Of a DNA stretch of 64,000 bases, positions 14,992 through 35,424 are shown piece after piece; the first letter of the stretch is position 1; every line of letters begins with the position of its first letter. The position numbers and the translations under genes were made by a program. This DNA is from Euzebya rosea (GTDB lineage Bacteria; Actinomycetota; Nitriliruptoria; Euzebyales; Euzebyaceae): assembly GCF_003073135.1 (NCBI RefSeq), contig NZ_PGDQ01000014.1:62001-126000 (forward strand), in the 5' to 3' direction. The notes under the pieces were generated by a model. It searched no databases. It was not told the DNA's origin and saw only the letters and a list, made by a program, of their open reading frames with translations.

Positions 14992-17900
14992 TCAGGAGGC
15001 GGTCGGGACGGCCGCGAGGAAGGCGTCGCTGATCACCGCCGTGCCACCCAGCCCGATCACCCGCTTGACGGACGCACGCTGGGACAGGGCGTGGCCGAGC
15101 GCCGCACCGGGCGCCGCAGGATCCAGGCCGTTGACCAGCACGACGACGCCGTCCAGCGCCGCCGCGACCGGACCGCCCGTCAGGCTGTCGGGGAAGTTCG
15201 CGCCGGTCGCCAGCACCAGTGTGTCGAAGGAGAGGCCGATCGCGCGGGCGTGGTTCAGGACGGCCTCGGCGGTGGTGTACCGCTCGGGGCCTGCCAGCCG
15301 CGTCGGTGACGGCAGACGCTCCATGACGGCGTCGGCGATCACGGCGGTCCCACCGACCACGGCGACCCGTTCGATGCCGAGGGCCTCGATGGTGTCGGCG
15401 GTGGCCCGGGGGATCTCGTCGCGGGTGACGAACAGGATCGGCCGGTGGGTGCGCGCGGCGACACCGGTGATCGACACGGCGTCGGCGAACCCGTCGGCGG
15501 TGACGACGTAGGCCTCGGGTGCCCCGTCGTCGAGGACCGACCCGGGCAGCTCGGCGGCGACGGCCGCGCCGACGGCGTAAGGGTCACCATCGCCGACACG
15601 GCGGACCGACAGGCCCATCGACTCCAGCTCCGCAGCGACCTCGGGGCCGACCAGCGACCCCACGATCACGGCATCCGTGGCACCCAGCTGGGCGATCCCC
15701 TCGCGTGCGACGGTCGACAGCGTGCCGTCGACCAGGACGATCGGGGCATCCAGGAACCCGGCCAGCGGCGAGGCCAGCAGGGCGTCGTGGTAGGTCCCCG
15801 CATCGGCGAGCACCACGGTGTCGCTGCCGTCGGGGTGGGCGGCGAGGGCCGCCGCGACGGACGTGGCGACCCGCTCGGGACCGCCGGCCCGCTCGGTGGT
15901 CAGCGCCGGCAGGCCGTCGAAGGTTGCGAGGTGGACGTAGGAGCCGCGCTCCAGGTACGGCTGCACCGAGGACGGCCCGGTCACGCCGGTCAGGCTGTTG
16001 ACCTCGGTGGTGAAGGTCGTCCGACGGAAGGCCGACAGGTCGTCGGCGCCGAAGCGGTCCTCCAGCGTGGCCAGCGCCGACTCGACCGCGGCCACGAGGA
16101 CCTCCTCGGCGGTCCGGTCGCCCAGCCAGTCGTGCCGGACGGCCAGGCCGGACGAGGCCGGGTCGAGGGCCCGCAGGACCAGGTTGAGGGCGGGGGACAT
16201 GTCGTAGCGGTGGCCCCCGACACCCAGCTGGCGGGAGACGAGGTCGGGACAGCCGCGGCCGGAGTTGCAGGCCGCCGCGGCGTCGGCGTCGGCGATCGGG
16301 CCGCCCCAGACGCTGCCGAGCACCTCCACGACGAGCGCGTCGACGACGGCGGAGAAGATCGTGGCCGCCGGACCGTCGGTGCCGTCCTCGAGCGAGGACT
16401 GCCCGCCGGGGCCACGGAAGGTGGTCGGCGCGTTCGGCGGGTCGTAGAAGCGGGTGTTCCAGCCCGCCAGCAGGTCGGCCACCGCGTCCAGTCGGGCGTC
16501 CACCCCGTCGATCGCGGACAGGACGAGCGGCAGGAACGGTTCGGCCCGGGGGTCGGTCAGCGCCGACTCCATCTCGATGGCCTGGAGGGTCTCGAAGGTG
16601 TGGTCGGTCCGGGACTCGGCCAGCGCGATGGGCGTGGCGACGCGTTGCACGGCACCGCCGGGACGGGACGTCGGGCCGATGCCCTCCCCGTCCAGCCAGT
16701 CGTGCGCGGGCTTGTTGTTCCAGTTGACGAGGAACCCCTGGGCGGGGTCGATGGCGTGGGGCAGGTCGTCGAACGGGATGCGGTCACCGAAGTCCGCCGA
16801 GCCGTCGCCGGGCAGGGGGAACCGCAGGTCGTTGGCCGGACGCTCGTGGTGGATGCCGGGGTGCCAGAAGGCGATGTGGCCGTCGGCGTCGGCGTAGGTG
16901 GTGTTCTCGTTCCAGGTGACCTGGCGCATGGCGGCCTCGAAGTCCTCGAGGGACTCCGCCCGGTTCCACGCGAGGACACCGTCGATGGTGTCGACCTCCT
17001 GGCCGAACATCTGGTACTGCACCGACCGGGCCAGCCGTTCGCCGTCGCCGTCCTCCTGCGCGACGATCGGGCCGTGGACGGTGCGGCAGACCTCGACGTC
17101 GACGGACCGGAGCGCCGGGGTGACCGGCAGGCCCTGGGTGGACTCGCGGTAGTCGATGGTCTCGGTGCGGCAGTCGGCGTCCTTCCACTGCCCGTCGTGG
17201 CGGTACTGCAGCGGCCCGCCGTCGGTCGGGTTGTCGCGGACGGTCTCGATGAAGCTGTCGACGGTCTTGGAGTAGCCGGTGGTCAGCGCCCAGGCGACCC
17301 GGTCGGTGTAGCCGATGCCGACGACCGGCAGGGCGGGCACCGAGGCACCGCGGGCGTCGTAGCCGCCGCCGTGCACCTCGTACTCCACGAGCAGGCTCGG
17401 ATAGGTCCAGCCCAGCTGCGGGCCGCTGATCAGCATGGCGTTGTCGTCGGCGGTGCGGGACGGACCGATCGCCATGCCGATGGACCCGCCGTGCAACGAC
17501 GCGGCCCACTCGGCGAGGGCGTCGGCCGCCCGGAAGGCCCGCGCCCGATCCACGGCGTCGGCCTGGTCGGATGCGCCGGAACGGGAGCCGGTGTCGTCGG
17601 CGAAGGCGGGCAGCGTGGAGGGTTCGGGGTAGGCGCCGGTCCCGGGCCCGTCGGCGAGCTCCAGCGGCAGGGTGGCCGCGAAGTCCGCGGCGGCGTCCAG
17701 CGACGCGTCGAGGTCGGTCAGCGGCGAGTTGGGGAACGTCCCCTCCTCCCGCGGGACGGTGGTGACCGCCAGGGGATCGTCCTGCCAGACCAGGTCGGCG
17801 AAGATCGCGCGGCCCTCCTCCTCACCGTGCTCGGCCTCCAGGTCGCGCAGCAGGCGGACGTTGTCCATCTCGTTGCCGCCCTCGGCGGCGACCGAACGGG

Positions 17901-18630
17901 TGATCAGGACTCCTGCAGCGGCGATGTCGATCAGGTCCAGCGGCTCGGGCCGCGTGGACAGCAGCGCGTACTCGACGGGCAGCAGGTCGGGGTTGGCGTT
18001 GACCTCCGCGATCCACTCGTTGGCACCGTCGACGTAGCCCTGCACGGCCGTCAGCGCCTCGTCGGACAGGCCGTTGATGATGGCCTGGTACTCCTCGTCG
18101 CTGTAGGTGAGGGTGCGGGTCTGCACGTCCAGGGGGACACCGGAGGTGCCGACCAGCTCGGCGAAGGTGCCCCTCCCCTGTCGCCGCACGGCGTCCATCA
18201 GGAACAGGCGGATCTGCGCGACCGCCCAGCCGGTGCCGAACCACACGTCCTCGGCGGTGTCACCGTGGATGGCCGGGGTGCCGAACTCGTCCCAGTACAC
18301 CCGGACCGCGCCGTCGCGCAGCGTTTCGGTGCGCACGGCGTCGGCGGGGTCCAGGAAGCCCTGTCCGGCGTAGCCCTCGAGCCCCCAGTAGATCGACGTC
18401 TGGTCGTCGGTGTGCTCGCCGAAGCTGCCACCGGCCGACCCGGCGACCTGGTCGGTCACCGACGTGAAGCCGGAGTTGCCCGGCGGCATCAACGACACCG
18501 CGGTCACCCCCTGGGGAGGGATGTCGACGGGTGCGTCCTGTGCACGTGCCGACGGCACGATCGGGGCCAGCAAGGCGGCCACGAGGGTCGCGACGAGGAA
18601 CAAGGAGGCGTGGACCGAACGTGACTGCAT
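14992..18630 (-). CDS. secreted penicillin-acylase-family hydrolase with cell-wall-binding repeats
   Basis: A 1212-residue exported protein. Signal peptide with likely cleavage after 'PSARA'. An Ntn-hydrolase (penicillin acylase family) precursor follows: Ser383 in 'HGGSIGMAIGPSR' is the expected new N-terminal nucleophile after autocleavage, with 'GIGYTDRVAWALTTG' and 'VTWNENTTYADADGHIAFW' downstream. The last ~300 residues hold three type 2 cell-wall-binding repeats ('GGPERVATSVAAAL', 'VGSLVGPEVAAEL', 'AGPERYTTAEAVLNHA'). It probably cleaves an amide such as a beta-lactam side chain or acyl-homoserine lactone at the wall. No ribosome site precedes the ATG; a TTG at 18681 is an alternative start. 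Confidence 0.88.
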   Translation of the reverse strand: MQSRSVHASLFLVATLVAALLAPIVPSARAQDAPVDIPPQGVTAVSLMPPGNSGFTSVTDQVAGSAGGSFGEHTDDQTSIYWGLEGYAGQGFLDPADAVRTETLRDGAVRVYWDEFGTPAIHGDTAEDVWFGTGWAVAQIRLFLMDAVRRQGRGTFAELVGTSGVPLDVQTRTLTYSDEEYQAIINGLSDEALTAVQGYVDGANEWIAEVNANPDLLPVEYALLSTRPEPLDLIDIAAAGVLITRSVAAEGGNEMDNVRLLRDLEAEHGEEEGRAIFADLVWQDDPLAVTTVPREEGTFPNSPLTDLDASLDAAADFAATLPLELADGPGTGAYPEPSTLPAFADDTGSRSGASDQADAVDRARAFRAADALAEWAASLHGGSIGMAIGPSRTADDNAMLISGPQLGWTYPSLLVEYEVHGGGYDARGASVPALPVVGIGYTDRVAWALTTGYSKTVDSFIETVRDNPTDGGPLQYRHDGQWKDADCRTETIDYRESTQGLPVTPALRSVDVEVCRTVHGPIVAQEDGDGERLARSVQYQMFGQEVDTIDGVLAWNRAESLEDFEAAMRQVTWNENTTYADADGHIAFWHPGIHHERPANDLRFPLPGDGSADFGDRIPFDDLPHAIDPAQGFLVNWNNKPAHDWLDGEGIGPTSRPGGAVQRVATPIALAESRTDHTFETLQAIEMESALTDPRAEPFLPLVLSAIDGVDARLDAVADLLAGWNTRFYDPPNAPTTFRGPGGQSSLEDGTDGPAATIFSAVVDALVVEVLGSVWGGPIADADAAAACNSGRGCPDLVSRQLGVGGHRYDMSPALNLVLRALDPASSGLAVRHDWLGDRTAEEVLVAAVESALATLEDRFGADDLSAFRRTTFTTEVNSLTGVTGPSSVQPYLERGSYVHLATFDGLPALTTERAGGPERVATSVAAALAAHPDGSDTVVLADAGTYHDALLASPLAGFLDAPIVLVDGTLSTVAREGIAQLGATDAVIVGSLVGPEVAAELESMGLSVRRVGDGDPYAVGAAVAAELPGSVLDDGAPEAYVVTADGFADAVSITGVAARTHRPILFVTRDEIPRATADTIEALGIERVAVVGGTAVIADAVMERLPSPTRLAGPERYTTAEAVLNHARAIGLSFDTLVLATGANFPDSLTGGPVAAALDGVVVLVNGLDPAAPGAALGHALSQRASVKRVIGLGGTAVISDAFLAAVPTAS

Positions 18631-18695
18631 TCGCGGGAGGGTAACAACACAGCGCACACGGGCCCTCGCGGTGGGTACCAATCCCTCGACGGGGG

Positions 18696-24002: not shown

Positions 24003-25483
24003 TGACCCGCTCCATCCGCCACACCGCCTGGACCGTCTTCGTGCTGTTCGGGCTGCTGTTCGTCAACCTCAACTGGCTGCAGGTCATCCAGGCCGACGAC
24101 CTGGCCCGCGACGAACGCAACCGCCGGCAGCTGCTGGCGGAGTACGAGATCCAGCGAGGGTCGATCACCGCCGGCAGCGGCACCCAGCAGCGGACGATCG
24201 CCAGGTCCCAGGACACCTCGGACCAGCTGCGGTTCCAGCGTGTCTACAGCGACGGGCCGACCTACGCCCACGTCACCGGCTTCCACTCCTTCATCTACGC
24301 CCGCACCCAGCTGGAGCAGCGCTACAACGAGTTCCTCCAGGGGTCCTCGCCGGACGCGTTGTTCCGCAACCTCGCCGACGCGCTGCAGGGCCGCGAACGG
24401 CAGGGCGACACCGTCGTCACGTCGATCGTGCCGGCCGTGCAGGAGGCGGCCGTCCAGGCGCTCGGCGGGCAGACCGGCGCGATCGTCGCGATCGACCCGC
24501 GGACCGGCGCGGTACTGGCGATGGTGTCCAGCCCCACCTACGACCCCAACGAGCTGTCCAGCCACGACGGCGCCTCGATCCGCGCGGCGTGGGAACGGCT
24601 CGAGGCCGACCCCGCCAACCCCCGGCTGAACCGGGCGACCAGCGAGCTGTACGCCCCCGGGTCCACCTTCAAGGTGGTCACCGCCGCCGCGCTGCTGGAA
24701 CGCGGCGGGAGCCCCGAGGACACCTTCGACGATCCCGCGTTCCTCGACCTGCCCCAGACCACCGCGCAGATCGGCAACTTCGCGTCCGGCCGCAGCTGCG
24801 CCGGCGGCACGATCACCCTCCGACGGGCCCTGGAGGTGTCGTGCAACACCACCTTCGGGCTGATCGGCCTGGACATCGGCGCCGCTGCGCTGGTCGAGAC
24901 CGCCCAGTCCTTCGGGCTGAACACCGACATCGAGTTCGACGTCCCCACGGCGACCAGCCGCATCCCCACCGAGCTGGACCCGCCCCAGACCGCCCAGTCC
25001 GCCATCGGCCAGCGTGACGTGAGGGTCTCGCCGCTGCAGATGGCGATGGTCGCCGGCGCGATCGGCAACGGCGGCGTGATGATGCGTCCCCGGCTGGTCA
25101 CCGAGGTCCAGGACTACGCCGGCCGGGTGCTGCGGGAGTACCCCGCCGAGCCGCTGTCCATCCCCAGCCGCGACGGCTCCCAGGCCGTCAGCCCCGGCAC
25201 CGCGGCGACGCTGACGGACATGATGGTCGGCGTGGTGAACAACGGCACCGGCACCAACGCCGCCATCCCCGGGGTGCAGGTCGCCGGCAAGACGGGCACC
25301 GCCGAGCAGGGGGAGGGACAGTCGCCGGACGTGTGGTTCATCGGCTTCGCCCCCGCCGAGGCCCCGCGTGTCGCCGTCGCCGTCGTCGTCGAGGAGGGCG
25401 GCAACGGCGGCGAGTCCGGCACCGGTGGTGGGATCGCAGCCCCGATCGCCCGTACGGTTATGGCAGCAGCGCTGGGGATCTGA
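24002..25483 (+). CDS. pbpA: penicillin-binding protein (class B transpeptidase)
   Basis: A 493-residue PBP with an N-terminal membrane anchor ('AWTVFVLFGLLFVNLNWLQ'), a dimerisation region and a transpeptidase domain. The active site is complete: STFK with Ser221/Lys224, SCN at 280-282 and KTG at 430-432. It cross-links peptidoglycan at the outer face and should pair with the RodA encoded just before it. A Gly-rich stretch near the C-terminus is unremarkable. pknB follows after 43 bp. Confidence 0.95.
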   Translation: MTRSIRHTAWTVFVLFGLLFVNLNWLQVIQADDLARDERNRRQLLAEYEIQRGSITAGSGTQQRTIARSQDTSDQLRFQRVYSDGPTYAHVTGFHSFIYARTQLEQRYNEFLQGSSPDALFRNLADALQGRERQGDTVVTSIVPAVQEAAVQALGGQTGAIVAIDPRTGAVLAMVSSPTYDPNELSSHDGASIRAAWERLEADPANPRLNRATSELYAPGSTFKVVTAAALLERGGSPEDTFDDPAFLDLPQTTAQIGNFASGRSCAGGTITLRRALEVSCNTTFGLIGLDIGAAALVETAQSFGLNTDIEFDVPTATSRIPTELDPPQTAQSAIGQRDVRVSPLQMAMVAGAIGNGGVMMRPRLVTEVQDYAGRVLREYPAEPLSIPSRDGSQAVSPGTAATLTDMMVGVVNNGTGTNAAIPGVQVAGKTGTAEQGEGQSPDVWFIGFAPAEAPRVAVAVVVEEGGNGGESGTGGGIAAPIARTVMAAALGI

Positions 25484-25526
25484 CGCCTGCAGCTTCCCCG
25501 GATCACGACAGAAAGAAGGCACTCGA

Positions 25527-27473
25527 GTGAGCACCACCGACGGACAGGATCGGCGCGTCATCGCCGGCCGGTACGTGCTGCGCGGCCTGCTCGGTCAGGG
25601 CGGCATGGCCGACGTGGAGCTTGCCTACGACGAGGTGCTCGACCGCCAGGTCGCGGTCAAGATGCTCCACGAGCGCTACACCGGCGACGATTCCTTCGTC
25701 GAGCGGTTCCGTCGAGAGGCCCAGTCCGCTGCGGCGCTGAACCACCCCAACGTCGTCGGGGTCTACGACACCGGCGCCGACAACGGCCGCCCGTTCATCG
25801 TCATGGAGTACATCGCCGGCCGGTCGTTGCGCGACATCATGCGCCGCGAGGGCGTGCTGCCCCGCCGGGCCGCCGAGATCGGTGCCGAGGCCGCGCAGGC
25901 GCTCCACTTCGCCCACGAACGCGGGATCGTCCACCGCGACATCAAGCCGGCCAACATCATGATCGGCGACGACGGACGGGTGAAGGTCACCGACTTCGGG
26001 ATCGCCCGGGCCGTCAACGTCGAGTCGGTCACCCAGACCGCCGCCGTGTTCGGCACCGCCGCCTACGTCGCGCCCGAGCAGGCCCAGGGCCAGCGGGTCG
26101 ACGGCCGCACCGACCTGTACGCGCTGGGCTGTGTGCTGTTCGAGATGTTGACCGGCCAGCAGCCGTTCTCCGGCGACACCGCCGTGACGCTGGCCTACAA
26201 GCACGTGTCGGAGGCGCCGCCCGAACCGCGCTCGATCAACCCCGACATCCCCCCGGCGCTGTCGGCGGTCGTGCTGAAGGCGATGGCCAAGGACCCGGCG
26301 CAGCGGTACCAGACGGGCAAGGACTTCGCCGACGACCTGAACCGCGCCGTGGCCGGCCAGCAGGTCGCCGCGTCCGCCGGGCAGACCGCGGCCTACGCCA
26401 CCACCCAGGCCATCCCGAGGCAGCAGGCCGGCACCGCCGCCCCGCACGACCCCACGCTGGTGGCGTCCACCCCGGTGGCGACCCCGGTGCGCGAGACGCC
26501 CCGCCCCAGCGAGGACTACTACGAGCGGTCCGGCCCCGACTACGGCCGCATCGCCGCCTACGCCTTCCTCGTCGTGCTGATCGCCGCGCTGGTGGGCATC
26601 GCGTGGTTCCTGTTCTCCGACCTCGGCGGCGACGACGAGGCCATCACCCAGGTGCAGGTCCCGTCGCTGATCGGCATGGACGTCGACGCAGCCCAGCAGG
26701 CGTTGGTCGCGCTGGAGCTGCAGCCGGCCATCGGTGAGCGGGAACCCAGCGCGACCGCGCCGCCCAACACGGTGCTGCGGACCGAACCGGGTGAGGGGAC
26801 GTCGGTCGACATCCGCTCGACGGTGACGTTGATCCTCTCGGAGGGCCCGGAGCTGATCCGCATCCCGCAGGTGATGGGCCTGACCGCGGCCGAGGCCGAG
26901 CAGCTGCTGGCCGCCGACGGCCTGGTCGTCGGTGGTGAGGAGACCGCCCAGGACCCCGATGTGGAGGAGGGGCTGGTCATCCGCACCCAGCCGGCCGCCG
27001 GCATCGAGGTCGAGCAGGGCACCGCCATCATCCTGGTGATCTCGGCGGGGCAGGAGACGTTCCGCATGCCCCCGGTGGTCGACCTGACCGAGGAGGCCGC
27101 GCGGGAGCTGATCGAGGGCGCCTGCGACCGTGAGGACGACACCCCGTGCGCCGTCGTCGTCGCCACGACCGACGCCACCGTGACCGGCGACGGGCGGGTC
27201 ATCCGCACCGACCCGGAGTCCGGCGAGGACGTCCTCATCGGCTCCCGCGTGACGATCGTGCTGTCCTCGGAGGAGCCCACGGAGGAGCCCACCACCGAGG
27301 AGCCGGAACCCGAGCCCACCACGGAGGAGCCGGAACCCGAGCCCGAGCCGACCACGGCTCCGCCCGAACCCCAGCCGACCCAGCAGCCCGAGCCCACCCC
27401 GACGCAGCCCCAGCCGACCCCCGAGCCGGCCCCACCACCCCCTCCCCCAACGGTCCCCGCGCCGACTGAATAG
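25527..27473 (+). CDS. pknB: Ser/Thr protein kinase PknB with PASTA domains
   Basis: A 648-residue receptor kinase. Kinase domain: glycine loop 'LGQGGMADV' (22-30), catalytic Lys45, 'HRDIKPAN' with Asp138, and DFG at 156-158. One transmembrane helix at about 342-363 is followed by three PASTA repeats (~375-585) that sense muropeptides or lipid II in homologues, then an extracellular tail of Glu/Pro/Thr repeats. Start GTG 25527 is chosen from conservation and an AAGG site; an upstream in-frame start at 25368 would overlap pbpA. It likely regulates RodA/PBP and the CwlM-like protein at 60.6 kb. Confidence 0.96.
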   Translation: MSTTDGQDRRVIAGRYVLRGLLGQGGMADVELAYDEVLDRQVAVKMLHERYTGDDSFVERFRREAQSAAALNHPNVVGVYDTGADNGRPFIVMEYIAGRSLRDIMRREGVLPRRAAEIGAEAAQALHFAHERGIVHRDIKPANIMIGDDGRVKVTDFGIARAVNVESVTQTAAVFGTAAYVAPEQAQGQRVDGRTDLYALGCVLFEMLTGQQPFSGDTAVTLAYKHVSEAPPEPRSINPDIPPALSAVVLKAMAKDPAQRYQTGKDFADDLNRAVAGQQVAASAGQTAAYATTQAIPRQQAGTAAPHDPTLVASTPVATPVRETPRPSEDYYERSGPDYGRIAAYAFLVVLIAALVGIAWFLFSDLGGDDEAITQVQVPSLIGMDVDAAQQALVALELQPAIGEREPSATAPPNTVLRTEPGEGTSVDIRSTVTLILSEGPELIRIPQVMGLTAAEAEQLLAADGLVVGGEETAQDPDVEEGLVIRTQPAAGIEVEQGTAIILVISAGQETFRMPPVVDLTEEAARELIEGACDREDDTPCAVVVATTDATVTGDGRVIRTDPESGEDVLIGSRVTIVLSSEEPTEEPTTEEPEPEPTTEEPEPEPEPTTAPPEPQPTQQPEPTPTQPQPTPEPAPPPPPPTVPAPTE

Positions 27474-28072: not shown

Positions 28073-28672
28073 CTACACCCTGACCGGCAACCCACTCAGG
28101 AAGTTGCCGAGGAGCTTCATGCCGCTGCGGGTGAGGATCGACTCGGGGTGGAACTGGACGCCCTCGACGGCGAGCTCGCGGTGGCGGAGGCCCATGATGA
28201 TGTCGGGGTGGGTCGACTCGGGCCCGGTGCGGGCGGTGACCTCCAGCACGTCCGGCACGGTCGCGGGGTCGGCCACGAGGGAGTGGTAGCGGGTGGCGTC
28301 GAACGGCTGGGGGAGGCCGGCGAACACGCCCCGGCCGTCGTGGTGGATGGCCGACACCTTGCCGTGGACCAGCTCGGGGGCCTGCACGATCGTCGCCCCG
28401 TAGACCTGGGCGATGCACTGGTGGCCGAGGCACACCCCGAGGATCGGGATGTCGCCGGCGAAGCGGCGGATGACGTCCATCGACAGGCCCGCGTCGTCCG
28501 GTGTCCCCGGGCCCGGGGAGATGACGATCCCGTCGGGCCGGTCGGTCGCGACGTCCTCGAGGACGAAGGCGTCGTGGCGGGTCACCGTGACGTCCGCACC
28601 CAGCTCCCCCATCTCCTGGGCGATGTTGTAGGTGAAGCTGTCGTAGTTGTCGATCAGCAGGATCCGTGTCAC
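28073..28672 (-). CDS. pabA: glutamine amidotransferase of anthranilate/aminodeoxychorismate synthase
   Basis: A 199-residue class I glutamine amidotransferase that supplies ammonia to chorismate-using synthases (tryptophan or folate pathway). Catalytic triad: Cys in 'GVCLGHQ', His and Glu in 'VQFHPESIL'; the oxyanion motif 'SPGPGTPDDAG' is present. The gene next to pknB in mycobacteria is also a trpG/pabA, so this position is conserved. No partner synthase subunit is in the window. PabA versus TrpG cannot be settled from sequence. Confidence 0.92.
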   Translation of the reverse strand: MTRILLIDNYDSFTYNIAQEMGELGADVTVTRHDAFVLEDVATDRPDGIVISPGPGTPDDAGLSMDVIRRFAGDIPILGVCLGHQCIAQVYGATIVQAPELVHGKVSAIHHDGRGVFAGLPQPFDATRYHSLVADPATVPDVLEVTARTGPESTHPDIIMGLRHRELAVEGVQFHPESILTRSGMKLLGNFLSGLPVRV

Positions 28673-28680
28673 GGGATGAC

Positions 28681-29352
28681 CTATCGGGGTGGAGTGGCGG
28701 TGTCGCGGATCGCCGCTAGGTGGACGTCCATGACGTGGTCGACGAGGCGGTCCACGTCCGGCCAGGGGAAGTCGATGGGCTCGACGGCCTTGGCAACCAT
28801 CATGCTCGTCACGCCGTGGACCGCCACGAGCAGTCCCATCGCGTGCATCGACGCCGGCGAGGTGGGGTCGTCGGGATCACCGGCTCCCTCGCCCATCGCG
28901 TCGGCCACGAGGCCGCGCAGCGCGTTGAACGCGAGCAACCCCTCGTAGGCCTGCGGGTCGAACCCCGCCGGCAGGTCGTGGTGGGGCGACATGAGCATGA
29001 TGCGGTACGGCTCGGGGTTGTCCAGCCCGAAGCGCACGAAGGCGTGGGCGGCGACGCGCAACCGCTCCGCCGGGTCGTCCACCGCCGTCGCGGACTGCAG
29101 GATGTCGCGTCGCAGCCGCCCGAGCAGCGAGCTGCAGCACTCGAACAGCAGCTCGTTCTTGTCGGCGAAGTGCAGGTAGATGGAGGGAGGGGTGACGCCG
29201 ACGCGCGTGGCGACGGCCCGGACCGACACGGCCGCCTCGTCGCCGGTCTCCAGCAACAGCTCGGTGGCCGCCTCGAGGATCTCCTCGCGCAGCCGGGCCC
29301 CGTCGCCGCGACGTGCGCGGGAGCGGGTCCGGGATACGTCGCGGGTCGGCAT
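28681..29352 (-). CDS. TetR-family regulator
   Basis: A 223-residue regulator with a basic N-terminus, a helix-turn-helix ('VATRVGVTPPSIYLHF') and a WHG-type TetR C-terminal domain ('VRFGLDNPEPYRIMLMS'). It lies eight bases before pabA and 14 bases after the pseudo-AMP-ligase gene on the same strand, so the three are probably one transcript. Target and ligand are unknown; no clear palindrome was found in the immediate leader. Confidence 0.88.
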   Translation of the reverse strand: MPTRDVSRTRSRARRGDGARLREEILEAATELLLETGDEAAVSVRAVATRVGVTPPSIYLHFADKNELLFECCSSLLGRLRRDILQSATAVDDPAERLRVAAHAFVRFGLDNPEPYRIMLMSPHHDLPAGFDPQAYEGLLAFNALRGLVADAMGEGAGDPDDPTSPASMHAMGLLVAVHGVTSMMVAKAVEPIDFPWPDVDRLVDHVMDVHLAAIRDTATPPR

Positions 29353-29366
29353 CAGCGGCCCGCCCC

Positions 29367-32300
29367 TCAGCGTGGCGGCAGCGGCAGCGGGCCCACGACC
29401 CCGTCGTCGACAGCGGTGGCGGCGTCGGCACCGGTCGAGGAGTCGGCGGGATCGACGTCCCGGTCGGACTCGACGGCCTCGGCCGACTCGGTGGTGGCGG
29501 ACTCCGCACCGGGGGTGGCGTCCGCACCCTCGACGGCCTCCTCGGGCGGGGTGACCACGGTGATGGTCCAGCGGCCCGGCGGCGCCTGGTTGGGAACCAC
29601 CTCGCTGAGGCGTGCCGTCAGCCGCCCTTCGTCCAGCGTGTCGTCTGACACCATGACCGACGCGGTCATGATCAGGTCGCCGTCCTCGACCTCGGTGCGC
29701 ACCATCGCGTCGAGCACGCCGTCGGTGCGGCGCAGGGCGGTGGCCAGCACCGTGGGGTCCGACGTGCCACCGCTGTGGGTGACGACCCGGTCGGCCGGTC
29801 CCACGACCTTGACCTGACCACGCTCGTCGATGTGCCCGAGGTAGCCGGTGGACACCCAGGTGTCGTCGTCGCCGGGAACCTGGGGACCACGTGCCACGAG
29901 CGTGCCGACGCCGTCGGGACCGGCACCGGCGACGGCGACCTCGGTGTCGGTGATCGGCAGGCCCTGGATGCCGGTGCGCGACTCGCCGTAGACCGGCTGG
30001 GCGGCGACCATGCCGCCGACCGACTGGCCGGACACCGACGTCCGGAAGCGGCCGCCGGTGCGGTTGCGCATCGCGGCGCCCATGGCTGGTTCGCTCGGGG
30101 GGGCCGCGGACAGGGTCACACGGATGGAGGTCAGGTCACGCCGCTTGGAGTCGGGTGCCAGCAGGTCGGTCAGGCCGGCGTCGGTGCCCACGAGCAGGCT
30201 CGGGCGCATGTCGTCGACGACGCGGGCGGCGGCACCCGGACGGGGCTCGGGGAGCACCAGGGTGGCGGCCGACAGCATGGCCTGTCCGAGTCCGGCGGTC
30301 AGCACGAACGCCGACGCCGGGCTGCCGGCGAGGACGACGGACTCCTTGCCGGCCTGGACGTCGGGGATCCACAGGCGGGCCTGGAAGCTGGCCGCGATCA
30401 TGTTGAGGTGGCTGAGCGCCACGGGGTTGTCCCCGTCGAAGACGACGACGGCGGTGGTCTCGTCGACGGCCAGCTCGACCTGCGGGGTGGCCGCCGGGGC
30501 CTGGGCCAGGATGTCGTTGAGCGACAGGACGCCGTCCTCCGCCGGGATGGTGATGGCCGGCAGGCGGAGCTTGACGGCCTGGACCTTCGCGCGGATGGCC
30601 GGCAGGACGTCGAGCAGTCCGGTCGTGACGACGTGCTGGACGCTGGCCAGCTGGTCCCTGGACGCCGCGAGCGCCGGGTAGGTGGTGTCGATGACCACCA
30701 GCGCGGTCGGTGCGGCCGTTTCGATCTGCCGGAGCACGACCTCGGGGCCGTCGTCGGGGTCGCACACGACGGCGACGAGGCCGGCGCGCCAGCAGGCGTG
30801 GAGCACCAGGACGAGCTGGGGTGACCAGGGCAGGACGACGCCCACGCGATCGCCGCGGCCGAGGCCGAGCTGCAGCAGCGCGGTCGCCAGGCGGTCGACC
30901 TGCTCGCCCAGGGCGCGGTAGGAGGTCTCGGTGCCGAGGAACTGCACCGCGGTGGCGTCGGGGAAGTCCTGCGCGGCGTCGTCGAGCAGCCGCGTCATCG
31001 GGACCAGGGGATAGCGGTAGGTGTCGGGCACGCCCGGCGGGTACAGCCGGATCCAGGGCCGCTCGGGCATGGCCTGCGGCGCGTCCGCGGCGGACGGAAG
31101 CTGGTCGACGACCGTCGACAGGTCCACGGTGCGGTCGGCCCCGTCGATCGACAGACCGTCCTCCACCTCGTGGTCGTCAGCGGACTCGTCGTCAGCGGTG
31201 TCGGCGGCCGTGGAGTCCTCGGCCGCGGGATCGTCGTCACCGGTCTCGGCGTCCGCCCGCGCGTCGTCCCCCCCTTCGGACTCCCCTTCCGGCCCGGCCC
31301 CGTCGTCGTCTCCGACGGCAGCGTCGTCGTCCTCTGACGGTTCCACGTGTGACGCCTCGGCCACGAGCGTGGGGTCCTCGTCGCTGGTCGGCAGCGACAC
31401 GTCGATCGACATGGTCGACAACGACACCGGGGCGGGAGCCCCTCCCTCGACGGGTTCAGGGGTGTCGGGTGCCGCGGACCGATCCGGAGGGAGGGGAAGG
31501 ACGAGGGCGGGTTCGTCCTCGCCCGCGCCGTCGCCGGCGTCCTCCGTGTCGGCGTCGTCCTCCACAGGTGCGTCCTGGGTGACCACGAGGGTGGGGGCCT
31601 CGTCGTCGACGACCGACGCCTCGGGGCCCGAGTCCTCGTCTGCACCGGTCACCGAACCGGCGTCGTCCTCGTCGATGTCGACGGGCTGGTCGTCCGCCGT
31701 CGGCTCCGCCACCTCGACCTCGTCGTCCGGGGCCTCGCTGGCGCCAGCGGCCTCGAGGTCGCGTGCCGTGACCATCCTGATCGGCGGGGTCGGCAGCGGG
31801 GGAATGTCCTCGGTCCCGGCGACGGCCTCGACCCCGTCCTCGGCAGCGGCAGGCCCGTGCGCCGGTTCCTCGTCAATCGAGGCGGGCTCGTCGACGGACA
31901 CATCCGCCACGGACACGTCCGCAGCAGGGACTCCCTCGGCATTCCCTGTCTCGGACGGTGCGTCCTGGGAGGGCGGGTCCGGCAGCGCCGGGATGTCGGT
32001 GGGCAGACCGGTCAGGGCGCCGAGGCGCTCGACGGCGTCGGGCTCCTGCGCCGTCGGCGCGGCTGCCTCGGGCTCGGTCGGCCGGGGTGGCTGCTCGGTC
32101 GGCTCGTCGAGGTCGGGTTCGGGGGCCGCCTCGACGCGGGCGGGCGCCGACGTGGTGACGTTGGTGTCGGGCGGGGTGGCCGCAGGAGGACGGGGGCGCG
32201 CCACGGGCGGCAGGGTGCGCAGCGTAGCCGGCGGCTGGGGCCGGTCCTGCGCGCGGCGGGCCGGGGTCGTCGGGCGGGTCCGGGCGGTGCTGCCGTTGTC

Positions 32301-32636
32301 GGTCGACGGGGTCGCTGGCGTCGGGGGGGTTTCCTGACGGGCGGACGTGGGCGCGACCTCGGGGTCCGGCGGGGTCGGGCGGGTCCGGGTGAGGGTCGGG
32401 TCGACGGTGATGCCGCCGCCGCGGAACTCCAGGCCGGGTTTCCGGCTCAGCGCCGGCGGTCGACGGTCGGGAACACGGCGGCGGGCGGAGTCCTGCACGG
32501 CCCGACGAGCGGCGGCATGACGCGCGGCGCTGCGGCGGGCCTCCTCGGCCTGCTGCCGAGCCTGCTCGGCCCGCTCCTTCGCGCTCGATTCGTCTCTGGA
32601 CACCGCTGCCGCCTTCGTTGTTCGTGGACGCCGCAT
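29367..32636 (-). CDS. degenerate AMP-dependent ligase-like protein with long acidic N-terminus
   Basis: A 1089-residue protein. Residues ~1-70 are Lys/Arg/Ala-rich and helical; ~70-520 are Pro- then Asp/Glu-rich and look disordered; ~525-1030 align with acyl-CoA synthetase/AMP ligases ('TSYRALGEQVDRLATALLQLGLGRGDRVGVVLPWSPQ' region, quoted only in part). The ATP-binding loop (normally SGTTGxPKG) reads 'VVFDGDNPVALSH', YxTGD reads 'VSTGYLG', and the C-terminal catalytic Lys motif is not found. It is therefore probably not an active ligase. Start ATG 32636 has a weak GGA site. Confidence 0.75.
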   Translation of the reverse strand: MRRPRTTKAAAVSRDESSAKERAEQARQQAEEARRSAARHAAARRAVQDSARRRVPDRRPPALSRKPGLEFRGGGITVDPTLTRTRPTPPDPEVAPTSARQETPPTPATPSTDNGSTARTRPTTPARRAQDRPQPPATLRTLPPVARPRPPAATPPDTNVTTSAPARVEAAPEPDLDEPTEQPPRPTEPEAAAPTAQEPDAVERLGALTGLPTDIPALPDPPSQDAPSETGNAEGVPAADVSVADVSVDEPASIDEEPAHGPAAAEDGVEAVAGTEDIPPLPTPPIRMVTARDLEAAGASEAPDDEVEVAEPTADDQPVDIDEDDAGSVTGADEDSGPEASVVDDEAPTLVVTQDAPVEDDADTEDAGDGAGEDEPALVLPLPPDRSAAPDTPEPVEGGAPAPVSLSTMSIDVSLPTSDEDPTLVAEASHVEPSEDDDAAVGDDDGAGPEGESEGGDDARADAETGDDDPAAEDSTAADTADDESADDHEVEDGLSIDGADRTVDLSTVVDQLPSAADAPQAMPERPWIRLYPPGVPDTYRYPLVPMTRLLDDAAQDFPDATAVQFLGTETSYRALGEQVDRLATALLQLGLGRGDRVGVVLPWSPQLVLVLHACWRAGLVAVVCDPDDGPEVVLRQIETAAPTALVVIDTTYPALAASRDQLASVQHVVTTGLLDVLPAIRAKVQAVKLRLPAITIPAEDGVLSLNDILAQAPAATPQVELAVDETTAVVVFDGDNPVALSHLNMIAASFQARLWIPDVQAGKESVVLAGSPASAFVLTAGLGQAMLSAATLVLPEPRPGAAARVVDDMRPSLLVGTDAGLTDLLAPDSKRRDLTSIRVTLSAAPPSEPAMGAAMRNRTGGRFRTSVSGQSVGGMVAAQPVYGESRTGIQGLPITDTEVAVAGAGPDGVGTLVARGPQVPGDDDTWVSTGYLGHIDERGQVKVVGPADRVVTHSGGTSDPTVLATALRRTDGVLDAMVRTEVEDGDLIMTASVMVSDDTLDEGRLTARLSEVVPNQAPPGRWTITVVTPPEEAVEGADATPGAESATTESAEAVESDRDVDPADSSTGADAATAVDDGVVGPLPLPPR

Positions 32637-32707
32637 TGTTCCATCATGTATCCACCCTTGCGAACCTCCATCGGCGGCGCCGTGGGCTCGCTGGTACGTT
32701 GACCCGG

Positions 32708-34135
32708 GTGGGCTCCGTACGCACCTTAGTCCCTCGGGCACGGGCCGTCGCCGCAGGGATCCTGCTGTCGGCCATGGTCTGCCTGCCCGCCCTCGCGGTG
32801 CCGGCCTCGACGATCGACCCGGCCAGCAACACGCCGCACCTCCGGGACGACGGCCACATCTCCCTCGCGTGGCTCTACGGGGGGTCGTCGGCGGACTACC
32901 GTGCGCAGATAGAGGCGATGCCCGGGCTGACGACGATCTCGCCGACGTGGTGGTACCTGGACGAGGACGATCCCGGCGGGCTGGAGATCGGCACCGACGA
33001 CGAGCTCGTCGCCTGGGCGCAGGCCCGTGGCCTGGCGGTGTGGCCGTTGTTCGGCAACCACATCGACCCCGACCTGACCGATCAGGTCCTCCGTGACCCG
33101 GTGCTGCGCCAACGAGTCGTCGACGGCATCGTCGCGGAGGTCCGGCGGTCGGGGGTGGACGGCGTCAACGTGGACTTCGAGAACCTCCACGACGACACCC
33201 GCTTCCTCCTCACCGACCTGGTGCGCGAGCTCGAGGTGGCCCTGCCCGAGGTCGTCGTCTCCGTCGACGTGACCGCCATGACCGACACGTGGGTGCTGGG
33301 CAACTGGTCGACGGCCTTCGACCGAGAGGGACTCGGCCGGGTCGCCGACTACGTGATGCTGATGAGCTACGACCAGCACAACTCGCTGCGGCGAGACGGA
33401 CCGGTGGCCGGGCTGCAGTGGGTCAGCGAGTCCACGGAGTTCCTGCTCCGCACGGTTCCCGCGGAGAAGCTGGTGCTGGGCCTGCCGCTGTACTCGCGGC
33501 ACTGGGCGACCGACGCCTCGGCCCGCGACGGCATCTCCCTGGAGGCCACGCTCGGCATGGCCGCGATGGCCAACCGTGTGGCCGAACGGTCTCAGGCGGT
33601 CACCTACGACCCGGTCGCCGGGCAGGACCTGCACACGTGGACCGACGAGCAGGGCCGACCCAACCGGGTGTGGCTGGAGGACGTCGCCAGCCTGCAGCGC
33701 AAGACCGAGCTGGTGGACCTCCACGGACTGGCCGGCATCGCCGCGTGGCGCGCAGGGTTCGAGCAACCCGAGGTGTGGACCGCGCTCGACGCCCAGCTGG
33801 CCGCCATGGCCCCACCCGGATCGACCGCCCCAGCTGCCCCCACCGAGACGCCCACCGCCGTTCCCGACCCCAGCACCGCCGACATGCCTGCCGAGGACGG
33901 CCCGGTCGCGGACGGCCCTGCGGTGGAGGAGGGGGCGGTGCCTGCCGGCAGCACACCCTCGACCGGGGCTCCCACCGCTGCAGCGACCGAGGGGTCCGAA
34001 CCGATGGACGCCACGGCGACCTCGGCAACCGCCGGTGGGGACATGGTGACGTTGGCCGCCGCCACGCTCCTGGGGGTGGTCGGCGTTGCCCACACGGTGC
34101 GCTGGCGGTTCAGCCGCCGAGCACGGGATCGGTGA
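32708..34135 (+). CDS. secreted GH18-family glycosidase-like protein
   Basis: A 475-residue exported protein. The signal peptide ends near 'CLPALAVPAS'; residues ~50-365 form a GH18 barrel of the spore-germination (YaaH/SleL) type with 'VDGVNVDFENLHDD', where Glu158 is the catalytic acid. A Pro/Thr/Ala linker and a C-terminal transmembrane helix ('MVTLAAATLLGVVGVAHTV') with a basic end anchor it to the membrane. It likely trims peptidoglycan or another glycan. Start GTG 32708 fits the signal peptide; divergent from the pseudo-AMP-ligase gene. Confidence 0.85.
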   Translation: MGSVRTLVPRARAVAAGILLSAMVCLPALAVPASTIDPASNTPHLRDDGHISLAWLYGGSSADYRAQIEAMPGLTTISPTWWYLDEDDPGGLEIGTDDELVAWAQARGLAVWPLFGNHIDPDLTDQVLRDPVLRQRVVDGIVAEVRRSGVDGVNVDFENLHDDTRFLLTDLVRELEVALPEVVVSVDVTAMTDTWVLGNWSTAFDREGLGRVADYVMLMSYDQHNSLRRDGPVAGLQWVSESTEFLLRTVPAEKLVLGLPLYSRHWATDASARDGISLEATLGMAAMANRVAERSQAVTYDPVAGQDLHTWTDEQGRPNRVWLEDVASLQRKTELVDLHGLAGIAAWRAGFEQPEVWTALDAQLAAMAPPGSTAPAAPTETPTAVPDPSTADMPAEDGPVADGPAVEEGAVPAGSTPSTGAPTAAATEGSEPMDATATSATAGGDMVTLAAATLLGVVGVAHTVRWRFSRRARDR

Positions 34136-34235
34136 CGTACCGGATCTCCACCCAGGGGAAAACGACGGTGAAGAGCAGGTAGACGACCACCAGCACGGCC
34201 ACGGCGATCAACCCACCGCGGAGCCACGGGTTCAC
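34110..34235 (-). CDS. 41-residue single-pass membrane protein
   Basis: Short frame with translation starting VNPWLRGG, then a hydrophobic stretch LIAVAVLVVVYLLFTVVF, ending PVLGG. The GTG start overlaps the sortase stop (GTGA), so it is translationally coupled; its 3' end overlaps the end of the convergent GH18 gene by 26 bp. No family recognised. A sortase accessory or a small stabilising peptide is possible. The coupling and clean membrane helix support it being real. Confidence 0.6.
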   Translation of the reverse strand: MNPWLRGGLIAVAVLVVVYLLFTVVFPWVEIRYVTDPVLGG

Positions 34236-34966
34236 GAGGCAGTCGTCCCCGCCGCCGGCGCAGCGGCCGTCTGCTGGTCGGGGACGAGCTCGGCGAACAC
34301 GATCAGGCGCTCCCGGTTGGACCAGCGGGGGTGGCAGGTCGTGAGGGTGAGGATCGGCGCGCCGGTACCCAGCGGGTCCTGCCCGAGCACGTAGTTCTCC
34401 GACGGGTCGACGATCCGCTGCTCGACGACCCGGTAGACCCAGCGCACGCCGTTGCGGTCGGTCACGTGGATCTCGTCACCGGCCTCGAGCGTCTCGAGGT
34501 CGTAGAACGGCGCACCGGCGGTCGTGCGGTGCCCGGCAACGGCGAAGTTGCCCTGCTCGCCCGGGTAGGCCGTCCCCGGGTAGTGACCCGGGCCCTCGCT
34601 CAGCGACTCGGCGTTGACACCCTCGACGATGAACAGGGGGCCGTCGTACACCGGTTGTTCGGCGCTGCCGGGACGGTGGAACTGCAGGGCCGCCACGGCC
34701 TCACCGACCTCGACTGCCTCGAGTGGCTGCTCGGTCTCGACCGGCAGCAGGGGGTCGCCACGGTCGTCGATCTCGCCGACCTCCAGCACCCAGTCGTCCA
34801 GGAACTGCTCCTGGGCCCTGCTGGTGGCGATGCCCGTCCAGTACAGGGAGTAGACGAGGTACAGGGCCAGCACAGCGCCGCCGGCGATGAACAGCCAGCC
34901 GAGGGAACGCAGGGCCGTACGCATGGGAGTGGACATCCGGGTCGTCGGAGGGGCGGGAGAGGGCAC
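34232..34966 (-). CDS. class E sortase
   Basis: A 244-residue transpeptidase that would anchor surface proteins to the wall. N-terminal membrane helix ('GWLFIAGGAVLALYLVYSLY'), then the sortase barrel with catalytic His ('FAVAGHRTT'), Cys211 in 'LTLTTCHPRW' and Arg in 'NRERLIVF'. Class E enzymes usually recognise LAxTG; no such substrate is obvious in the window. The start is uncertain (GTG 34966, ATG 34936 or 34924). In Streptomyces class E sortase genes also lie near pknB. Confidence 0.9.
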   Translation of the reverse strand: MPSPAPPTTRMSTPMRTALRSLGWLFIAGGAVLALYLVYSLYWTGIATSRAQEQFLDDWVLEVGEIDDRGDPLLPVETEQPLEAVEVGEAVAALQFHRPGSAEQPVYDGPLFIVEGVNAESLSEGPGHYPGTAYPGEQGNFAVAGHRTTAGAPFYDLETLEAGDEIHVTDRNGVRWVYRVVEQRIVDPSENYVLGQDPLGTGAPILTLTTCHPRWSNRERLIVFAELVPDQQTAAAPAAGTTAS

Positions 34967-35193
34967 GCCGACGGCGACGAGGCGTCGTCACCAGCAGGCG
35001 GTCCACGCGCGAGGGTAGCCGCGTCGGGGGGGCGGGCCGATCGTCCGTCGGGGCGGGTCGACCGGCCGCACCCCCACGGGCGTACCTCGGTCCACGCACG
35101 GTGGCGGTACCATCACCCTTTACTGTCCCTGTGCTCCAGCCCTCGTCATGGGTGCGGAGCCAACCGCAACGCCAGCCGTTCAGAGGTGCCGAC

Positions 35194-35424
35194 GTGCCCA
35201 AGTCCAAGTCGAAGCGCGACAACTACACACCGCCGCCGAAGCCGAACCCGCCGCCCAGCCCGCAGTGGGTGCCGGTCGCGGGCACGGGGCTCATCGCCCT
35301 GGGCATCATCGTGATCCTGATCAACTACGTGTTCCCGGGCTTCCTGCCCGGTGGCAACTACGCGATCATCGTGGGCTTCGTCATGATGGCGGTCGGGCTG
35401 GGCATCCTCAGCCAGTGGCGCTGA
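35194..35424 (+). CDS. crgA: cell division protein CrgA
   Basis: A 76-residue protein with a basic start (VPKSKSKRDNYTPPPK) and two transmembrane helices ('GTGLIALGIIVILINYVF', 'YAIIVGFVMMAVGLGIL'), the CrgA layout. In actinobacteria it stabilises or restrains the division complex, interacting with FtsZ, FtsQ and PBPs. GTG 35194 is chosen because AGAGG lies seven bases upstream and the product matches CrgA length; upstream in-frame codons are not conserved. Confidence 0.92.
   Translation: MPKSKSKRDNYTPPPKPNPPPSPQWVPVAGTGLIALGIIVILINYVFPGFLPGGNYAIIVGFVMMAVGLGILSQWR

Follow-up and report, generated by a model that had tools for sequence, protein, structure and literature searches.

An Euzebya rosea gene encodes an acyl-CoA synthetase–like protein that has kept its fold and lost its catalytic motifs, and the same kind of degeneration is found in most of its syntenic orthologs across the class. 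The gene, which we identified by Pfam matches and by its syntenic orthologs, lies on the minus strand at 29367–32636 of a 64,000-nucleotide stretch of genomic DNA (hereafter, the window), with its start ATG at 32636 and its stop at 29367, and encodes an AMP-ligase-like pseudoenzyme of 1089 amino acids with a long N-terminal arm; a congener has a 95% identical protein in which the start ATG is conserved. Because catalytic parts have been lost in nearly every species while one short stretch has stayed nearly unchanged, the family probably consists of non-catalytic binding proteins. On balance, from the sequences and a structural model, we favor the view that the window protein descends from a long-chain fatty-acyl-CoA synthetase and serves its locus as a scaffold or binding protein that has the ANL fold but no catalytic activity.

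The AMP-binding family (PF00501) matched residues 552–920 of the protein (E 1.7e-38, 132.9 bits against a gathering cut-off of 29.9), and AlphaFold modeled residues 515–1035 (29532–31094, minus strand), using an input alignment of 45 orthologs, with a pLDDT of 92.4 and a pTM of 0.91. When searched with Foldseek, the modeled domain matched solved ANL enzymes (E 8.1e-35), with a Z score of 42.3 to 4wv3. It has the fold in common with 4wv3 (anthranilate-CoA ligase), 3t5c (FACL13), and 1v25 (ttLC-FACS), with Z scores of 39–42 over 366–455 residues, but shares only 15–22% identity with them and has lost their catalytic loops. The ORF call, Pfam, and AlphaFold thereby confirmed the ORF and the AMP-ligase fold reported in a preliminary description of this DNA, which had called for just such a structure prediction. 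A single-sequence AlphaFold model of the minimal relative in genome G027 reached a pLDDT of only 33 and was left out of the evidence.

Motif comparison indicated what the domain has lost. The consensus ATP P-loop (A3) YTGGTTGxGKG, with its Gly-rich turn and Lys, is absent; the loop reads LYTGGTTGTGKGVMLTH in intact relatives at the same locus and is reduced to a shorter remnant, VFDGDNPVALSH, in the window protein (aa 732–743; 30408–30443, minus strand). The TGD of motif A7 has become TGY (aa 930–932; 29841–29849, minus strand), A5 YGLTE (Y-G-x-T/S-E) has become VSGQSV (within TSVSGQSVGG), A8 VDRKKD has become VGPADR, and the catalytic A10 Lys of the C-terminal domain is missing. The earlier claim that the ATP loop, the Thr-Gly-Asp motif, and the C-terminal Lys were altered or missing was therefore correct, and the window protein, as modeled, retains the ANL fold without the motifs of the known chemistry. 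The best NCBIfam model for both the window protein and its degenerate relatives was PRK05605 (NF004114), FadD, an actinobacterial long-chain-fatty-acid–CoA ligase. Compared with that family, the window protein lacks the P-loop, TGD, and A10 Lys, has a long arm, and scores far below the cut-off (155.1 versus 766 bits). Intact relatives at the locus scored 540–641 bits with PRK05605 or PRK06710, also below 766 bits, and so even the intact enzymes fall outside the PRK05605 equivalog. Pseudoenzymes in general (reviewed in PMC5106787 and PMC10211241) keep the fold, lose catalytic motifs, and are strongly constrained elsewhere; the window protein likewise keeps its fold, loses its motifs, and is constrained elsewhere.

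The order of genes around the ligase gene is crgA (35101–35424, plus strand; PF06781), a class E sortase gene (34232–34966, minus strand; NF033747, 165.8 bits against a cut-off of 160), a divergent gene for a GH18-family protein (32618–34135, plus strand; PF00704; start codon uncertain), the ligase gene, a TetR-type regulator gene (28681–29352, minus strand; identified by Pfam and synteny), inserted downstream of the ligase gene and ahead of pabA in some members of the genus, and the glutamine amidotransferase gene pabA/trpG (28073–28672, minus strand; identified by family searches). Beyond pabA, on the other strand, lies an fhaA-fhaB-pstP-rodA-pbp-pknB operon, the last gene of which encodes a pknB-type PASTA kinase (25368–27473, plus strand; true start downstream of the ORF start). 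Only 14 nucleotides separate the ligase gene from the TetR gene and 8 nucleotides separate the latter from pabA, and the operon genes adjoin, in agreement with the unit described previously. Elsewhere in the window (14992–18681, minus strand), a 1229-amino-acid penicillin-amidase protein has three C-terminal CW_binding_2 (PF04122) stretches and is apparently an acylase tethered to the cell wall.

The order crgA, class E sortase, ligase, pabA, with crgA on the opposite strand, is kept across the class, and the window protein belongs to the family defined by this slot, as it lies between the class E sortase gene and pabA at the crgA locus and carries the R-L-W-x-P-D...E element described below. 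Named relatives from a separate collection, Nitriliruptorales and Egibacter MAGs, point to Nitriliruptoria as the class. In 38 of the 47 loci measured, the ligase stop fell no more than 80 nucleotides from the DNYDSF motif of PabA, which means that the ligase gene adjoins or overlaps the pabA start. The pknB neighborhood is general in the window's order, but in the sister family most of the orthologs have no pknB beside them, and hence the linkage to the sortase gene and pabA is older and tighter. We found no ligase between sortase and pabA in three order members (G008, G010, and G024; loci L167, L169, and L171), implying that the gene is dispensable in places. At several of the sister-family loci (L156, L192, L159, L166, and L181), a divergent ORF with a GGKRIRPxLLLLG motif, polyprenyl-synthase-like by eye, lies between sortase and ligase, in the position of the window's divergent GH18 gene. 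Orthologs throughout the class rule out a free-standing curiosity of one genome: the ligase gene has syntenic orthologs class-wide. Chance and mis-assembly are likewise ruled out, since the gene order recurs in many genomes, including some assembled as single or near-single contigs.

PF00501 matched all 45 aligned orthologs from the slot (E 0.01 or better), with the C-terminal domain recognized by Pfam in 23 of the 45. Among the 46 orthologs scored in the class, 40 were degenerate and six were intact (G005, G006, G014, G019, G043, and G044). A search for homologs with the same kind of losses thus yielded 40 in the class, which much strengthened the pseudoenzyme claim. None of the 40 had the A10 Lys and one had the P-loop Lys; the A4 His was kept in 2, the A7 Asp in 16, and the A5 Glu in 15. 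Six sister-family members (G039, G041, G042, G046, G051, and G052) have nearly intact A5 and A7 and have lost the P-loop and A10 Lys. Because A5 and A7 contact AMP, these six, together with the preserved fold, lend some support to a ligand sensor, whose domain would hold acyl-CoA, an acyl chain, or AMP without converting it and signal its presence to the products of the envelope genes. However, A5 and A7 are changed in the window's own lineage, the His of the A4 acyl gate is nearly always gone, and across the family none of the nucleotide or acyl contacts is conserved. With the ATP, A5, A7, and A4 positions varying in this way, the sensor idea raised in the preliminary description is weakened for the window protein, and we consider it unlikely, with the best chance in the group of G039 and G041.

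What has been conserved lies elsewhere in the domain. The stretch RLWIPDVQAGKE (aa 754–765; 30342–30377, minus strand) contains an R-L-W-x-P-D...E element whose R, L, W, P, D, and E are identical in 40 of 40 degenerate orthologs. In the numbering of the window protein, the invariant residues are R754, L755, W756, P758, D759, E765, L788, R839, R865, and G917, and 43 columns have at least 90% identity among the 40 sequences. Thus FQARLWVPDVQAGRE, which follows the site of the lost P-loop, has persisted longer than any of the catalytic motifs. The intact slot enzymes carry RLWxPD as well, suggesting that the subfamily may require it for structure rather than for docking, and the R, W, and E of the element are found in intact enzymes of a second class of the phylum, which indicates that the element was inherited, not invented. 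An enzyme still active through a rearranged active site could draw on this invariant cluster and on strong purifying selection, but the presence of RLWxPD...E in normal enzymes means that it is not a new active site; with the P-loop shortened or deleted, the A10 Lys found in none of the 40, and the C-terminal domain missing in many, we regard continued catalysis as highly improbable.

Selection on the domain was strong. In the comparison with the closest relative analyzed, dN/dS was 0.07 for the domain and 0.046 for its N-terminal part, and the domain had no stops or frameshifts. Values were 0.16–0.27 in most close pairs of degenerate orthologs and higher (0.34–0.57) in some distant pairs. Purifying selection of this strength shows that the window gene is not decaying, and the dN/dS of 0.07 together with the invariant columns rules out a decaying pseudogene. 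A related proposal is that the protein is a passive relic, an enzyme decaying under relaxed selection whose frame survives mainly through translational coupling to pabA. The tight spacing to pabA and the loss of the whole gene or its C-terminal domain in several lineages fit this idea, but it is hard to reconcile with the uninterrupted, constrained domain and its 43 conserved columns, with the 500-residue arm that the window's lineage has added, or with the TetR gene standing between the window's ligase gene and pabA, and we therefore judge it very unlikely.

Intact homologs, which the preliminary description had named as potential counterevidence, do exist: the six in the class, plus every one of the four scored in the second class (G074, G088, G102, and G184); they do not refute the loss but show that the ancestor was an enzyme from which catalysis was lost. 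In three of the four (G074, G088, and G102; loci L198, L197, and L202), the intact ligase gene adjoins pabA at the same place; G088 and G102 also have pknB farther along. The slot ligase was absent from the other sampled phylum members having the crgA-pabA-pknB arrangement. Three of the intact slot ligases (L077, L076, and L197, from G005, G014, and G088) carry histone-H1-like, Lys/Ala-rich N-terminal tails with AAKKAA repeats.

In trees that excluded the catalytic columns, the slot family of the class formed one clade (100/100) with its intact members low in it, and intact genes of the class and second class together branched outside or low in the tree. The 36 fully degenerate sequences formed one clade (99/99 in one tree and 90/90 in another), outside of which fell four sequences that were degraded in different ways (G011, G018, G013, and G025). 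From these trees it seems that catalysis was probably lost more than once. The number of losses, at least two, and four on a literal reading of the second of these trees with losses assumed irreversible, is uncertain because the 36-sequence clade mixes two orders, a single clade for all members of an order was weakly rejected (p-AU 0.032), and fast-evolving sequences may attract one another in the gene tree.

The N-terminal arm has three parts, all on the minus strand. A basic head (aa 1–75; 32412–32636), judged helical by composition, has 21 Lys and Arg versus 9 Asp and Glu, as expected from the basic head noted earlier, and is conserved in all four genus members. It is followed by a Pro/Arg/Thr-rich stretch (aa 76–160; 32157–32411) with 22 Pro in 85 residues and then by an acidic, disordered-type region (aa 161–515; 31092–32156) with 103 Asp and Glu versus 8 Lys and Arg in 355 residues. 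The acidic arm previously put at ~450 residues is therefore real but was missized, the acidic part spanning ~355 residues and the whole arm ~515. When compared with the closest relative analyzed, these parts had dN/dS values of 0.12, 0.20, and 0.44, respectively: judging from the aligned sequences, the head is constrained, and the acidic part evolves rapidly apart from conserved islands. This pattern and high third-position GC (0.77–0.92 in the arm versus 0.94 in the domain) indicate that the arm is very probably translated.

Arms of the four genus members each have two to three LPxPP motifs, compared with 0.07–0.09 expected from shuffles; those of the window protein are in DIPALPDPP (31971–31997), DIPPLPTPP (31782–31808), and LPLPP (in LVLPLPP; 31485–31499), all on the minus strand. 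A related GPLPLPPR is found at the C terminus in G000 (the window's genome) and G001. We rejected LPxPP as a mimic of the FtsZ tail, as FtsZ tails of the genus end in DLDIPSFLRR and have only the DIP triplet in common with it. In most orthologs the N-terminal extension is minimal, and long upstream open frames in four sister-family genomes (G036, G038, G039, and G059) are candidate extensions seen as frames only, so the long arm with its head is a genus-level addition.

This distribution bears on whether the protein might be a hub at which PknB phosphorylates Thr-rich acidic islands of the arm and FhaA and FhaB read them. A full fhaA-fhaB-pstP-rodA-pbp-pknB operon adjoins, and Thr islands such as DEDPTLVAE and ADRTVDLS are conserved between congeners, but no ortholog outside the genus has the long arm with these islands, and most sister-family orthologs have no pknB nearby. 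With most orthologs also lacking a long arm, phosphorylation is not the general role of the family; as a proposal for the genus it would be compatible with a non-catalytic scaffold and at most genus-specific, and we think it quite unlikely.

Returning to the non-catalytic scaffold, we propose that the ancestral gene, flanked at the crgA locus by pabA and the gene for a class E sortase, encoded a long-chain fatty-acyl-CoA synthetase, and that most of the class lost adenylation and thioester chemistry but retained the fold for binding or scaffolding. A partner may be bound through the RLWxPD region at this cell-wall and division locus, whose genes travel along, and the genus also gained the basic head and long acidic arm, whose LPxPP repeats could tether further partners. 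About 30 other AMP-binding proteins above the Pfam cut-off are present in the E. rosea genome and could supply the chemistry elsewhere. A scaffold rather than an enzyme is plausible. More tentatively, these ANL-fold pseudoenzymes might have, class-wide, a structural or regulatory part in the crgA/class E sortase/pknB cell-wall locus, having arisen through several losses of catalysis, with RLWxPD docking a partner and the genus-specific arm adding docking sites through LPxPP.

Pseudoenzymes and the ANL fold are already known, but in the open-license literature searched, no paper that we found described a pseudoenzyme derived from acyl-CoA synthetase at a bacterial envelope locus, and one in a crgA/sortase/pabA locus appears to be undescribed. 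The family places such a protein next to genes for cell division and wall synthesis (crgA, a class E sortase gene, and pknB) in a little-studied bacterial group. It also provides a rare natural series at one fixed chromosomal place, whose members range from intact acyl-CoA synthetases, which relatives still have, through partly degraded versions to fully non-catalytic ones; the series makes testable the question of which part of a metabolic enzyme stays when catalysis is given up.
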